A stretch of 17,709 nucleotides of DNA from Flavobacterium psychrophilum. GTDB taxonomy: Bacteria > Bacteroidota > Bacteroidia > Flavobacteriales > Flavobacteriaceae. The DNA lies in NCBI GenBank assembly GCA_945866505.1, contig CAMBHH010000055.1:1-17709 (forward strand), given 5' to 3'. Position numbers and translations under genes: made by a program. Positions 1-8,627 of the stretch are shown here, in pieces (the first letter of the stretch is position 1; every line of letters starts with the position of its first letter). The notes beneath the pieces were generated by a model. That model made no database searches, was not told the DNA's origin, and saw only the letters and a program-made list of their open reading frames with translations.

Positions 1-128
1 CCAATCATGGATAAGTCTGGCACTAGAATGAGAACCAAAAACCACCACCAAGCAAAATCTAACTGGTTAAAAAGATAAATCCCAAAAAGGAACAATCCAA
101 ATTCTTCGAGTTTAATAACTGTTTTCAT
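1..128 (-). CDS. DUF4260-like membrane protein (5' part only)
   Basis: The reading frame starts at an ATG on the minus strand (128-126) and runs off the window edge, so only the first 42 residues are visible. They begin MKTVIKLEEFG and continue as a hydrophobic stretch rich in Phe, Leu and Ile, containing a WWWF run and then a VPDLSM motif. This resembles my recollection of the N-terminus of DUF4260 family proteins, small multi-pass membrane proteins of unknown function. The start overlaps the stop of the upstream GNAT gene by one base (TGATG), which implies co-transcription and translational coupling. The family call rests on a short N-terminus and is moderate; the existence of a coding frame is more certain. 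Confidence 0.6.
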   Translation of the reverse strand, partial: MKTVIKLEEFGLFLFGIYLFNQLDFAWWWFLVLILVPDLSMI

Positions 129-526
129 CACACTATTTTTTCCATCATTTTTTCTGGGTGCGCCAATGCCTTAAAACCAAATTTCTCATATAAAAAGTGA
201 GCATCAGATGTGGCCAATCTCCATATTTTCACCTCCTTCAAAACAGGTTCATTCATCATTGCATCAATTAAAATAGAAGAATAGCCGTTTCCTCGATATT
301 CTTCAGCAATAAAAACATCCATCAAATAGGCGAGAACCACATAATCTGTAATCACTCTTGCAAAACCTATTTGGACATCATTCAAATAAATTCCAAAACA
401 AACGGAACTGTCAATCGTGGTTTGCACTTCTTCGATAGTTCTTCCGGCTGCCCAATAAATATCTTTCAAAAAATCTTGAATGAAAGGAATGTTGAGTTTC
501 GTTTTATCGGTTGAGGTTGTAATCAT
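128..526 (-). CDS. GNAT family N-acetyltransferase
   Basis: This 132-residue protein is a single GNAT domain, predicted to transfer an acetyl group from acetyl-CoA to an amine of unknown identity in the cytoplasm. The acetyl-CoA pyrophosphate-binding motif A is clear at about residues 70-91, with R78-G79-N80-G81 fitting the R/Q-x-x-G-x-G/A pattern just after strand beta4 (YLMDVFI). The closing YEKFGF motif at 113-118 is typical of the last helix and strand. Length is normal for a minimal GNAT. The gene is followed with a 1-base overlap by the DUF4260-like gene and is preceded, only 10 bases upstream of its ATG, by the left palindrome of the GIY-YIG element. That element may therefore have displaced its original promoter. 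Substrate cannot be inferred. Confidence 0.88.
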   Translation of the reverse strand: MITTSTDKTKLNIPFIQDFLKDIYWAAGRTIEEVQTTIDSSVCFGIYLNDVQIGFARVITDYVVLAYLMDVFIAEEYRGNGYSSILIDAMMNEPVLKEVKIWRLATSDAHFLYEKFGFKALAHPEKMMEKIV

Positions 527-535
527 ATTCTTTTA

Positions 536-554
536 TGCTGAATTTATTTCAGCA
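536..554. repeat. Left palindrome of GIY-YIG element
   Basis: A perfect inverted repeat, TGCTGAA, a 5-base loop TTTAT, then TTCAGCA. It is followed on the plus strand by TCT. A second copy with the same 7-5-7 geometry and the same trailing TCT sits at 874-892 on the opposite strand, so the two copies face inward around the GIY-YIG frame. The loops differ between the copies while the stems are identical. Confidence 0.85.
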
Positions 555-568
555 TCTCACCTTGAGAT
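554..568. repeat. Second hairpin abutting the left palindrome
   Basis: ATCTCA-CCT-TGAGAT is a perfect 6-bp inverted repeat with a 3-base loop. It lies directly inside the left palindrome and just after the GIY-YIG stop codon (573-571). With the palindrome it makes a double hairpin at the 3' end of the element, which could act as an RNA structure or as a recognition site. There is no long T-run, so it does not look like a standard terminator. Confidence 0.6.
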
Positions 569-570
569 AC

Positions 571-858
571 TTATAGATATGTGTATAAATCTTTTAACTC
601 AGGATTTGAAAATTTTGCTAAATTCCATTTCCAATCTTTATGCCTATTTTTTAATTGTTTTTCTCTTTTAAAAGCATCACTAAAATCATCAAATTCTTCA
701 AAGTATATTAAAATTGTTGCGTTGTACTTTTTTGTAAAAGCAGCACCGGTTCCATTACGATGACAATCAATCCTGTTTTTGAGATTTTTACTCGCGCCAA
801 CGTATAAAACGGTACAGTTTTTATTTGTTAGAATAAAGTAAATCCCTTTTCCATAAAT
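571..858 (-). CDS. GIY-YIG nuclease family protein, no standard start codon
   Basis: Reading the minus strand gives a small GIY-YIG endonuclease domain of about 95 residues, ending in TAA at 573-571. Counting from the ATT codon at 858-856, the landmarks are G5-I6-Y7, Y19-V20-G21, the active-site R29, H33, and the metal-binding E66 in a KREKQLK motif. The Trp/Lys-rich tail (DWKWNLAKF) is typical of the short YhbQ/UPF0213-like subfamily, which averages 80-100 residues. All expected catalytic positions are present, so the domain looks intact. The frame stays open back to a TAA at 957-955 but contains no ATG, GTG, TTG or CTG. Either a rare start (ATT at 858 or 897) is used, translation enters from hemW (this is the -1 frame of hemW), or the start was lost. 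The given 5' end is provisional. Palindromes flank the gene on both sides. Confidence 0.72.
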   Translation of the reverse strand: MYGKGIYFILTNKNCTVLYVGASKNLKNRIDCHRNGTGAAFTKKYNATILIYFEEFDDFSDAFKREKQLKNRHKDWKWNLAKFSNPELKDLYTYL

Positions 859-873
859 TTTAAGATTAAAAGA

Positions 874-892
874 TGCTGAAACTAGTTCAGCA
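874..892. repeat. Right palindrome of GIY-YIG element, overlapping hemW stop
   Basis: TGCTGAA, loop ACTAG, TTCAGCA: the same 7-bp stem and 5-base loop geometry as 536-554. Read on the minus strand it is followed by TCT, as in the left copy, so the two copies are inverted relative to each other. On the minus strand the palindrome encodes the end of the last Met codon, the Leu and Asn codons and the TAG stop (884-882) of hemW. It is also read through in another frame by the open GIY-YIG frame. Confidence 0.85.
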
Positions 893-2039
893 TAAATAAA
901 TCTGAAGCAATCCCATCGGTCAAAAATTTTCCTTTTTTGGTTGTTTTTAAAATGTTATCTTCAATAAAAAGAAATCCATCATCAATAAATTTCTGGAATT
1001 GTTTTTGCAAATAAACTAAAAATTCATTTCCGAATTCTTGTTCAATTCTATCTATAGAAACGCCCCAAATGGTTCGCAAACCTGTCATGATGTATTCGTT
1101 ATAACGATCGGTTTGGGTTAAAATTTCAATTTCGTTGGGTAATTTATTATCCTCCATTGATTTCAAATAAATGGAATTATTCGAAACATTCCAACTGCGC
1201 GAAATTCCGTTATAACTATGTGCCGATGGTCCAATGCCAATGTACTTTTTCCCCAACCAATAAGCCGAATTATTCTTCGAAAAATAATTCTCTTTCCCGA
1301 AATTCGACAATTCATAATGGATAAAACCATTCTTTTCAAGGGTTTCGACCAAAATTTGAAAATGTTCTTCTGCAACTTCATCTTTGGGTTTGTCAATTTT
1401 TCCGGTTTGAATGAGTTTGCTTAAAGCCGTTTTAGGTTCCACGGTCAGGGCATAACTTGAAATGTGCGGAATGCCAAAAGACAAAGCGGTTTCTATATTA
1501 TGTTTCCACTTTTCGTTGCTCATTTGCTTTACCTGTTCGCCATTCTGTTTCGGGTCAGGAATTCCATACATCAAATCAAGGGAGATATTATCAAAATATT
1601 TTGTAGCAAATTCTAAACATTTTTTAGCTTCTTCCGAATTATGAGCGCGATTCATCATCGTTAAATCTTCTTCAAAAAACGACTGAATCCCGATACTTAA
1701 ACGGTTAATTGGACTGTTTGATAATTCGATAATTCGTTCTTTGGATAAATCATCCGGATTGGCTTCAATCGTAATTTCTGGGTTTACTGCAACTTTGTAA
1801 TTTTCATAAACCGCATCAATCAAAAATTGTATTTCGTTAGTTGTCAAAACACTTGGAGTTCCTCCACCGAAATAAATGGTTTCTACTGCTTCATCTTTAA
1901 ACTCAATTTTTCGCAATTCTATTTCTTTGGCCAAAGCCAAAACCATATCCTCTTTTTTCTTCATTGAAGTCGAAAAATGAAAGTCGCAATAATGACAAGC
2001 TTGCTTGCAAAAAGGAATATGAATGTAGATACCGCTCAT
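882..2039 (-). CDS. hemW: HemW-like radical SAM protein (heme chaperone family)
   Basis: This is a 385-residue radical SAM protein of the HemN/HemW family. The [4Fe-4S]-binding CxxxCxxC motif is C11, C15, C18, directly after the family start [10 protein letters not shown]. Position 20 is Phe, where true HemN coproporphyrinogen dehydrogenases carry a further Cys; this marks the HemW branch, which is known to bind heme and act in heme trafficking rather than oxidise coproporphyrinogen. The GGGTPS SAM-binding motif follows at about residues 58-63, and the C-terminal HemN-like domain is complete in length. The gene starts inside the stop region of ruvC with an ATGA overlap (2036-2039), implying a coupled ruvC-hemW transcript. 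Its last codons and TAG stop lie in a palindrome of the adjacent GIY-YIG element, so the C-terminus (FMLN) may be repeat-derived. Confidence 0.93.
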
Positions 2040-4693: not shown

Positions 4694-4706
4694 ATTTCAA
4701 AAAACC

Positions 4707-4784
4707 TAGCCCAGATAGTAGTGGAAATCCTTTATGTTTTTTCTTTAAAACATAAAGATTGCAACGGATAGCTGGAAAAAGCTA
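4707..4784. ncRNA. Candidate structured RNA element (possibly Flavo-1-like)
   Basis: The spacer between two convergent genes folds into nested helices. An 11-bp perfect hairpin lies at 4730-4740/4747-4757 (CTTTATGTTTT with AAAACATAAAG, loop TTCTTT). It is enclosed by internal-loop sequences containing AGATAG and GGATAG, then by CCAG (4711-4714) paired with CTGG (4772-4775) and TAGC (4707-4710) paired with GCTA (4781-4784). From memory, a similar repeated element (AGCCCCGATAG ... GGATAGCGGG) is widespread in Flavobacteriia spacers. The change from CCCG/CGGG there to CCAG/CTGG here would be compensatory. Whether this is Rfam Flavo-1 cannot be confirmed here. Strand is uncertain; written on the plus strand. 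Confidence 0.5.
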
Positions 4785-8553: not shown

Positions 8554-8627
8554 AGCCGGCGGAGGGACTCGAACCCACGACCTGCTGATTACAAATCAGC
8601 TGCTCTAGCCAACTGAGCTACGCTGGC
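8554..8627 (-). tRNA. trnT: tRNA-Thr (anticodon UGU)
   Basis: The 74-base cloverleaf on the minus strand has D arm GCTC/GAGC, anticodon arm GCTGA-TTTGTAA-TCAGC and T loop TTCGAGT. The anticodon TGT is at loop positions 3-5 and reads Thr ACA codons. Discriminator base is U; CCA is not encoded, as is usual in this phylum. Two stems carry mismatches: A4 opposite C69 in the acceptor stem (GCCAGCG/CGCCGGC) and U50 opposite U64 in the T stem (GTGGG/CCCTC). The gene has a consensus promoter directly upstream and a strong terminator downstream, so it appears to be an independent unit. Confidence 0.93.

Follow-up and report, generated by a model that had tools for sequence, protein, structure and literature searches.

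What a small nuclease gene is doing between two inverted copies of one DNA hairpin is the question raised by a locus of Flavobacterium psychrophilum, for which the original prediction had proposed a design recalling REP sequences and their RAYT transposases, with a GIY-YIG nuclease in the place of the transposase. The window, i.e., the whole stretch of DNA analysed, comprises 17,709 nucleotides (contig CAMBHH010000055.1 of assembly GCA_945866505.1). On the minus strand, on which the genes lie, hemW is followed by a hairpin, CT, the GIY-YIG gene, AG, a second hairpin and a GNAT gene (Table 1), so that the tight position of the block between hemW and the GNAT gene is confirmed. Elsewhere, the window contains a Flavo-1 RNA (RF01705, 80 bits) at 4704–4782 (+) and a tRNA at 8554–8627 (−).

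Table 1. Features of the hemW–GNAT locus, in window positions; throughout the text, G and L numbers are handles of genomes and loci, respectively.
Feature	Position	Strand	Observation
Whole unit (359 bp): hairpin, GIY-YIG gene with broken start, inverted hairpin	535..893	−	Absent in its entirety from the hemW–GNAT loci of G146, G096 and G175
5' hairpin (gene strand), ATGCTGAA-CTAGT-TTCAGCAT, then CT; includes the hemW stop codon (882–884)	873..893	−	Present in 13/13 subfamily copies
GIY-YIG gene, Slx1/UPF0213-like, with broken start; domain frame open 897..571 without start codon	571..854	−	
3' hairpin, inverted relative to the first; gene strand: AG, then ATGCTGAA-ATAAA-TTCAGCAT	535..555	−	
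hemW; final codons enter the hairpin (..SDLFMLN*)	882..2039	−	Own ends in the relatives with an empty site, ..SDLFYLNLE* being the commonest
GNAT acetyltransferase, downstream neighbour	128..526	−	Next gene directly behind hemW in G146 and G096, where the site is empty

Exactly two copies of the palindrome TGCTGAA-N5-TTCAGCA are present in the window (536–554 and 874–892), compared with 0.00 expected from 200 shuffles, and they are inverted relative to each other with TCT on the inner side, exactly as predicted. The matches described as a 19-base palindrome with 7-base stems are present, but the true stem measures 8 bp once the adjacent A/T is counted (535–555 and 873–893), around a loop of 5. 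Both hairpins fold as DNA, at about −7 kcal/mol each. The gene between them encodes a GIY-YIG domain (Pfam PF01541, 4e-16) and not a HuH/Y1 tyrosine transposase; that its reading frame holds all key residues was, however, overstated. In the domain frame, no ATG, GTG or TTG start leaves at least 20 residues, and the ATG at 854–852, the counterpart of the start used by the relatives, lies in a different frame from the domain and runs for only 8 codons before a stop. In comparison with the relatives, the copy is frame-shifted near its start, and even the literal "GIY" arises from this shift, GFTY being found in most relatives. Because the relatives' start ATG is out of frame and no usable in-frame start exists, the window copy may be a decayed gene or a sequencing or assembly error; in 12 relatives, the gene is intact.

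These relatives, together with the window copy, form a group termed subfamily A. In all 7 closest relatives among the species genomes, the gene follows hemW and has both hairpins, and the same arrangement at the hemW site is found in all 13 copies examined (12 intact ones plus the window). The 5' stem has two variants, distinguished by one compensated base-pair change (G-C to C-G), namely ATGC..GCAT in 7 copies and ATCC..GGAT in 6. The exact window stem is present at 2 to 9 places in 7 relatives, and a relaxed pattern of the window hairpin in 39 of 101 congeners. At the 3' end of hemW in L148 (G154), three tandem copies of the 5' hairpin are found, and in L007 repeated hairpin units lie on the 3' side of the gene; these hairpin-only tandem copies imply that hairpins multiply locally without the gene.

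Among 30 hemW loci, taken as the best matches of a search of 199 congeners, the block is present in 5 and absent in 25, and none of the 25 empty sites holds a perfect hairpin of at least 7 bp with 3 G/C within 250 bases after hemW. The comparison of hemW–GNAT loci that the original prediction called for therefore did yield clean empty sites, with the same GNAT gene following within about 10 bases after hemW in G146 and G096, but it also revealed that the subfamily of this copy is fixed at hemW (13/13). The reading frame of hemW ends in ..YLDLK* and ..YLNLK* in G146 and G096, most often in ..YLNLE* elsewhere and in ..MLN* in the window. In several empty sites (L126 of G175, L135, L140, L142 and others), another repeat-like spacer stretch, AACCGCAAGG.. 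/ ..CACTAAG..CACAAAG.., is seen just after hemW; it is partly self-complementary over a longer distance.

Since the identities of the nucleases rise and fall with those of hemW (66 non-independent pairs, Spearman 0.61; for the window versus L001, 85% for the nuclease and 83% for hemW) and all copies sit at hemW, subfamily A has mostly been inherited together with its site, and the comparison of nuclease and hemW divergence revealed no movement within it. On a hemW tree with weak support, the presence of the block switches 7 times, a patchiness that may be due to multiple losses, to more than one insertion at the same site or to recombination. The nearest hemW relatives of the window (G175, G146, G153, G051) lack the whole block, and the window copy therefore looks like an old, mostly vertically inherited and decaying resident. 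As an active mobile element it was rejected, given its broken frame, the one fixed site and the vertical pattern.

Most of the hairpins found beside small GIY-YIG nucleases share one form, in which (C/T)GTC precedes a stem that starts with AT and measures about 8 bp, a loop of 4 or 5 bases, the returning stem and CCA or CT. The GTC tag is present on 87 of the 134 hairpins beside 54 classed nucleases, and at least one tagged hairpin occurs at 37 of the 54 loci (e.g., L019, L192, L195, L250). Most of these hairpins match the definition of CGTC-tagged REPs in the accessible text of Di Nocera et al. 2013 (PMC3733652), where this superfamily includes the Neisseria dRS3 and the Rickettsia RPE-4 and RPE-6 elements, is described as being without a dedicated transposase, and leads the authors to ask what could move it. 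The window hairpins share the stem and loop of CGTC REPs (8–9 bp with AT start, loop 4–5; here ATGCTGAA with a loop of 5) and have the tail CT instead of a CCA-like one; a search of the window for GTC-tagged hairpins found no GTC tag on them, nor is there one on those of subfamily A. The CCA tail is common on ATTCCCGC-type and alpha-proteobacterial units.

Relatives of the nuclease were found in 64 of 101 Flavobacterium genomes by a genus-wide search. From 110 places (30 loci plus 80 more), two without a frame and one long UvrC-like frame were dropped and three loci gave a second frame, resulting in a final set of 110 frames in 107 loci, in whose flanks hairpins are confined to certain subfamilies (A–E). 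Among these genus frames, hairpins accompany subfamily A in 4/4 cases, always on both sides; subfamily B (..YHNYWVYILTNKPNGTLYIGVT) in 4/4, on both sides in three; subfamily C (..YIYILASQKNGTLYIGVT) in 3/4, on both sides in two and with TTCCCGC-type stems; subfamily D (MKLWYIYIM..) in 2/2, on both sides in one; and subfamily E (..GFVYILTNNTNT..) in 2/2, on both sides. In Flavobacterium, hairpins are not a feature of most GIY-YIG subfamilies, and those of subfamily A carry no tag; under the strict definition, a GTC-tagged hairpin on any side is found at 4/110 GIY-YIG genes versus 1/999 control ORFs of the genus. The notion that all small GIY-YIG genes are hairpin-bound was rejected, the MKPGF.., ..GYHTYYIYI.. 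and MKGYMYI.. groups of Flavobacterium having only sporadic, unpaired hairpins.

Beyond the genus, subfamily C has relatives (E up to 1e-22) in 103 of 296 Bacteroidota genomes, in up to 8 copies; from these, 30 loci and 40 hand-picked stretches were drawn from among the matches listed. Subfamily C relatives were also found in 31 records of a plasmid collection, of which 10 were fetched. Hairpins lie on both sides in seven of them (Aeromonas, Shinella, Neisseria, Sinorhizobium, Azospirillum, Novosphingobium and Rhizobium sp. CIAT894), on one side in Photobacterium and on neither in Planktothrix and Rhizobium tumorigenes, which establishes the pairing in two phyla, Bacteroidota and Pseudomonadota. 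A tagged GIY-YIG unit lies between sufB and sufC on plasmid AZO_p3 of Azospirillum lipoferum (L188). Apart from subfamilies A–E, a small GIY-YIG group (..YVYIL..DKFYIGYT; L122, 8923–9180 (−), and L124, 198–449) carries identical terminator-like hairpins on both sides (A-run, stem, T-run; AAAAGCACTCAATTTGAGTGCTTTT at −33 and +63, AAAAAAAGCCTTACAATTGTAAGGCTTTTTTT at −51 and +50) and is possibly a different hairpin-bounded element. A further hairpin type is represented by CCTGCCTTTGCCGGCAGGCAGG-type palindromes, which bracket two GIY-YIG genes on different contigs of G040 (L044 and L111) that are 86% identical and share no flanks.

The association was quantified on 40 Bacteroidota stretches (768 kb) containing 50 GIY-YIG genes and 513 control ORFs, the latter chosen mechanically (at least 80 amino acids, longest non-overlapping) and the nuclease loci being best matches, i.e., a non-random choice. 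Hairpins with outward GTC tags lie on both sides of 8/50 GIY-YIG genes and of 0/513 control ORFs (p=2e-9, kinship ignored), and a GTC-tagged hairpin on any side accompanies 20/50 versus 23/513. For hairpins of the untagged type of at least 8 bp, the two-sided counts are 13/50 versus 8/513. Tagged hairpins reach a density of 1.04 per kb within 300 bp of GIY-YIG genes versus 0.07 elsewhere, 47 of the 99 in these stretches lying within that distance. Where the nearest tagged hairpins are found on both sides (25 loci), the tags point outward in 15, inward in 3 and the same way in 7. Stand-alone tagged pairs in Bacteroidota have no preferred orientation (5 outward, 7 inward, 9 same-strand), and REPIN-like dimers were rejected as a general rule. 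Among the matches listed, close pairs of CTGAA hairpins are arranged plus then minus in 13 cases, minus then plus in 2 and on the same strand in 3.

The type of hairpin follows the nuclease. On a quick maximum-likelihood tree of 195 different nucleases, with identical proteins counted once, the state flanked or not flanked changes 9 times, compared with a mean of 47 and a least value of 38 in 2000 shuffles (0/2000 as low); among the 54 flanked nucleases, hairpin class changes 8 times, compared with a mean of 24 and a least value of 17 (again 0/2000). The classes were defined post hoc, after inspection of the data, L122 and L206 having been relabelled "none" before the tree test because their hairpins are terminator-like; the shuffles take no account of kinship, and in subfamilies A, C and D the match stems in part from common descent at a single site. 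With L122 dropped, all 35 two-sided loci have the same hairpin class on both sides. Out of 160 nuclease pairs with an identity of 60% or more, blastn detects shared flanking DNA in 24, and the pairs of at least 70% identity without detected flank similarity agree in hairpin class in 13/13 cases, one of these pairs lying on one contig and one within one genome. No classed hairpin accompanies 139 of the 195 small GIY-YIG genes (54 being classed after the two were relabelled), and the family as a whole is therefore not REP-bound. The predicted enrichment of palindromes near GIY-YIG genes thus holds for certain clades but not for most small GIY-YIG genes, which are unflanked. That certain clades are bracketed by REP-type hairpins, in a clade-specific manner and in two phyla, we regard as almost certain.

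Traces of movement are found outside subfamily A. In G288, two elements of 349 and 342 bp start 1.1 kb apart and are identical in 318 of 349 aligned columns; their similarity runs from CGTC to GACG, with 11/30 and 13/27 bases agreeing outside, although BLAST extends the match 27 bases beyond GACG. In G266, three copies stand in tandem, repeating about every 419 bp, and a further one is inverted; in G274 two identical proteins are encoded within REP clusters. In G020, a subfamily B element takes up about 560–595 bp, whereas at the corresponding place about 13 to 65 bp are present in G021, G042 and G039; none of these three empty sites contains a hairpin of at least 6 bp, and G039 has its own subfamily B gene at another place. 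At the level of the class, presence/absence polymorphism with clean ends is thus observed (the G288 duplication and the empty sites); a target-site duplication was not recognised.

Hairpins and nucleases also co-occur across genomes. At least 5 copies of CTGAACTNGTTTCAG are present in 8/8 Flavobacterium genomes with subfamily A or B versus 12/93 without (p=6e-7, kinship ignored). In Bacteroidota, GTCATTCCCGC-N4-GCGGGAAT was found in 37 of 296 genomes, 28 of which encode subfamily C, compared with 75 of the 259 genomes without this repeat (p=1e-7, kinship ignored). Where at least 10 such sites are present, the share is 12/13; in 9 of the 37 genomes with the ATTCCCGC repeat, subfamily C is missing at the cut-off. 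G046 and G088 contain 49 and 33 sites of CTGAACTNGTTTCAG (the CTGAA hairpin), respectively, and neither has a nuclease of subfamily A or B (cut-off E 1e-8) or a Y1_Tnp match; their hairpins may be orphan REPs or have an undetected partner.

The protein itself consists of nothing but a GIY-YIG domain (about 95 residues) and falls, by its domain, into the Slx1-like branch of the GIY-YIG superfamily. Y7, Y18, G20, R28 and E65 are invariant across ten aligned rows, and the two tyrosines, the arginine and the glutamate we take to be the GIY-YIG catalytic residues. The predicted structure of an intact 94-residue relative (mean pLDDT 76.8, falling below 50 over the final 20 residues) has UPF0213 1zg2 as its nearest fold (E 4e-4), followed by Slx1 (E 0.01–0.02; TM to query 0.60–0.64 for the best four chains) and UvrC; by sequence, the nearest solved structures are 1zg2 and 1ywl. 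The prokaryotic Slx1-like/UPF0213 proteins correspond to COG2827, and GIY-YIG enzymes are not known to form a covalent intermediate. Slx1 cuts branched DNA, and the GIY-YIG enzyme ANKLE1 is described, in the accessible text of its report, as nicking one strand of a cruciform in a supercoiled plasmid (PMC10287932). On this precedent, the nuclease would recognise the hairpin or cruciform once it is extruded by replication or supercoiling and would nick near the hairpin base, at the tag; host repair could then copy or rearrange the hairpin, or the entire hairpin-gene-hairpin unit, to new places. We infer hairpin recognition, nicking and mobilisation by the nuclease and a dependence of REP spread on it.

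With somewhat better than even confidence, we read the block as a decayed member of a class of widespread elements, in which a minimal Slx1-type GIY-YIG gene lies between inverted hairpins of the CGTC type, or akin to it, and the nuclease is the partner enzyme of these hairpins. This reading builds on the bracketing, the match of clade and hairpin, the units at unrelated loci, the tag-bounded duplication and the empty sites. The proposed REP/RAYT analogy accordingly gains ground beyond the locus, where enrichment, stem types that track the clade, unrelated loci and empty sites speak for it, but it holds only in part for the copy from which it was drawn, which is fixed at hemW like all 13, diverges in step with hemW, is untagged and is frame-shifted. 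Since its subfamily is settled at one site, its hairpins lack the tag and its start is broken, the window copy is probably inactive. A wider claim, about which we are evenly divided, is that of a second, independent REP system, in which small Slx1-type GIY-YIG nucleases mobilise CGTC REPs across phyla (including the dRS3 type), co-evolve with the hairpins and copy hairpin-gene-hairpin units through structure-specific nicks and repair by the host.

Three other explanations have to be weighed against the nuclease as partner enzyme. The hairpins might be spread by another process and the GIY-YIG gene be a homing parasite that cuts REP hairpins and is copied in by repair; a gene repaired into the REPs it cuts would end up between two of them. 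Copies do often lie within REP clusters (L019, L020 and the arrays of G274 and G266), the tandem period in G266 suggests exchange between repeats, and REP-rich genomes without the nuclease exist. We nevertheless consider such homing unlikely, given that 25/25 empty hemW sites and 3/3 empty sites of the G020 unit have no perfect hairpin of the size sought, so that hairpins and gene came or went together, and that the duplicated unit of G288 stops at its outer tags. It is less likely again that the gene is a bystander in hairpin-rich spacers, or that the hairpins are terminators or mRNA stabilisers of the nuclease gene. The location of hairpins near both gene ends, one of them holding the hemW stop codon, makes effects on transcripts likely, and terminator-like hairpins do stand on both sides of some GIY-YIG genes (L122, L124); yet outward-tagged hairpins bracket none of the control ORFs in the same stretches, the clade of the nuclease predicts the hairpin class, the same hairpins occur away from the gene, by the dozen in some genomes, and other GIY-YIG subfamilies of the same genus have no recurring hairpins.

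Very improbable is the movement of the hairpins by a RAYT or IS200-type tyrosine transposase encoded elsewhere in the genome. For GTAG REPs, RAYTs are proposed as the partner enzymes in the accessible text of PMC3733652, and of the 16 hairpin-bearing genomes searched, which include all 8 with subfamily A or B, 12 encode Y1_Tnp proteins (28 loci, 26 of them over the family cut-off). However, neither a CTGAA nor a GTC-tagged hairpin was found at any of the 28 loci (stretches of about 3.3 kb each, three of them shorter), many of which carry other palindromes; four of the 16 genomes, including the hairpin-richest ones, G046 and G088, have no Y1_Tnp match; and the same absence is reported for CGTC REPs by Di Nocera et al. 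(PMC3733652), in the part of that paper available. With such hairpins missing from the 28 Y1_Tnp loci read, mobilisation by RAYTs was rejected. Near Y1_Tnp-like genes at four Flavobacterium loci (L165, L178, L180, L182; L180 and L182 under the cut-off), CAAGGTTTT..AAAACCTTG-type palindromes are found, seemingly a RAYT-type REP family of their own.

Short palindromic repeats fill many bacterial spacers, and one of their two large superfamilies had no known enzyme according to the accessible text of PMC3733652; a named partner nuclease would, if the reading is true, turn the mobility of CGTC REPs into a question for the bench. It would, furthermore, give small stand-alone GIY-YIG proteins a selfish role, addressing a question left by the 2006 survey of the superfamily, the available main text of which asks whether further members are molecular parasites and does not contain "palindrom" (PMC1564403), and it would mean that the REP life style has evolved also with an enzyme that is not a transposase. 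Among the matches listed from the open-licence literature, titles and beginnings of abstracts contain no earlier link of these nucleases to bacterial REPs. CGTC REPs themselves are known; GIY-YIG nucleases are newly proposed here as their partner.

Compared with known systems, the elements share with CGTC REPs the GTC, TGTC or CCTC tag, the AT-initial 8-bp stem, the 4–5-base loop, the CCA-like tail and the occurrence in scattered and clustered copies; they differ in the nuclease gene between two hairpins, no dedicated enzyme being named in the accessible text of PMC3733652, and the window's own hairpins differ in being untagged with a CT tail. With the prokaryotic Slx1-like/UPF0213 proteins, they have in common the minimal stand-alone GIY-YIG domain (nearest to 1zg2 and 1ywl), but the known members are predicted repair nucleases for which the available text of the survey names no link to hairpin repeats (PMC1564403). 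GIY-YIG homing endonucleases possess the same catalytic domain and, if our reading is right, a similarly selfish life style, whereas here no intron and no NUMOD or other DNA-binding domain is seen and the ends are hairpins. RAYT/REPtron/REPIN systems (TnpA-REP) likewise consist of one nuclease gene between inverted hairpins that are also scattered in the genome. Single-copy, vertically inherited cases occur among RAYT genes as they do among the GIY-YIG units. In both systems, the hairpin type evolves with the enzyme (for RAYTs, in the accessible text of PMC6006769). In contrast to RAYTs, the enzyme is a GIY-YIG domain of about 95 residues instead of a HuH/Y1 tyrosine transposase, the hairpins have no GTAG tag, and they are absent from the Y1_Tnp loci.
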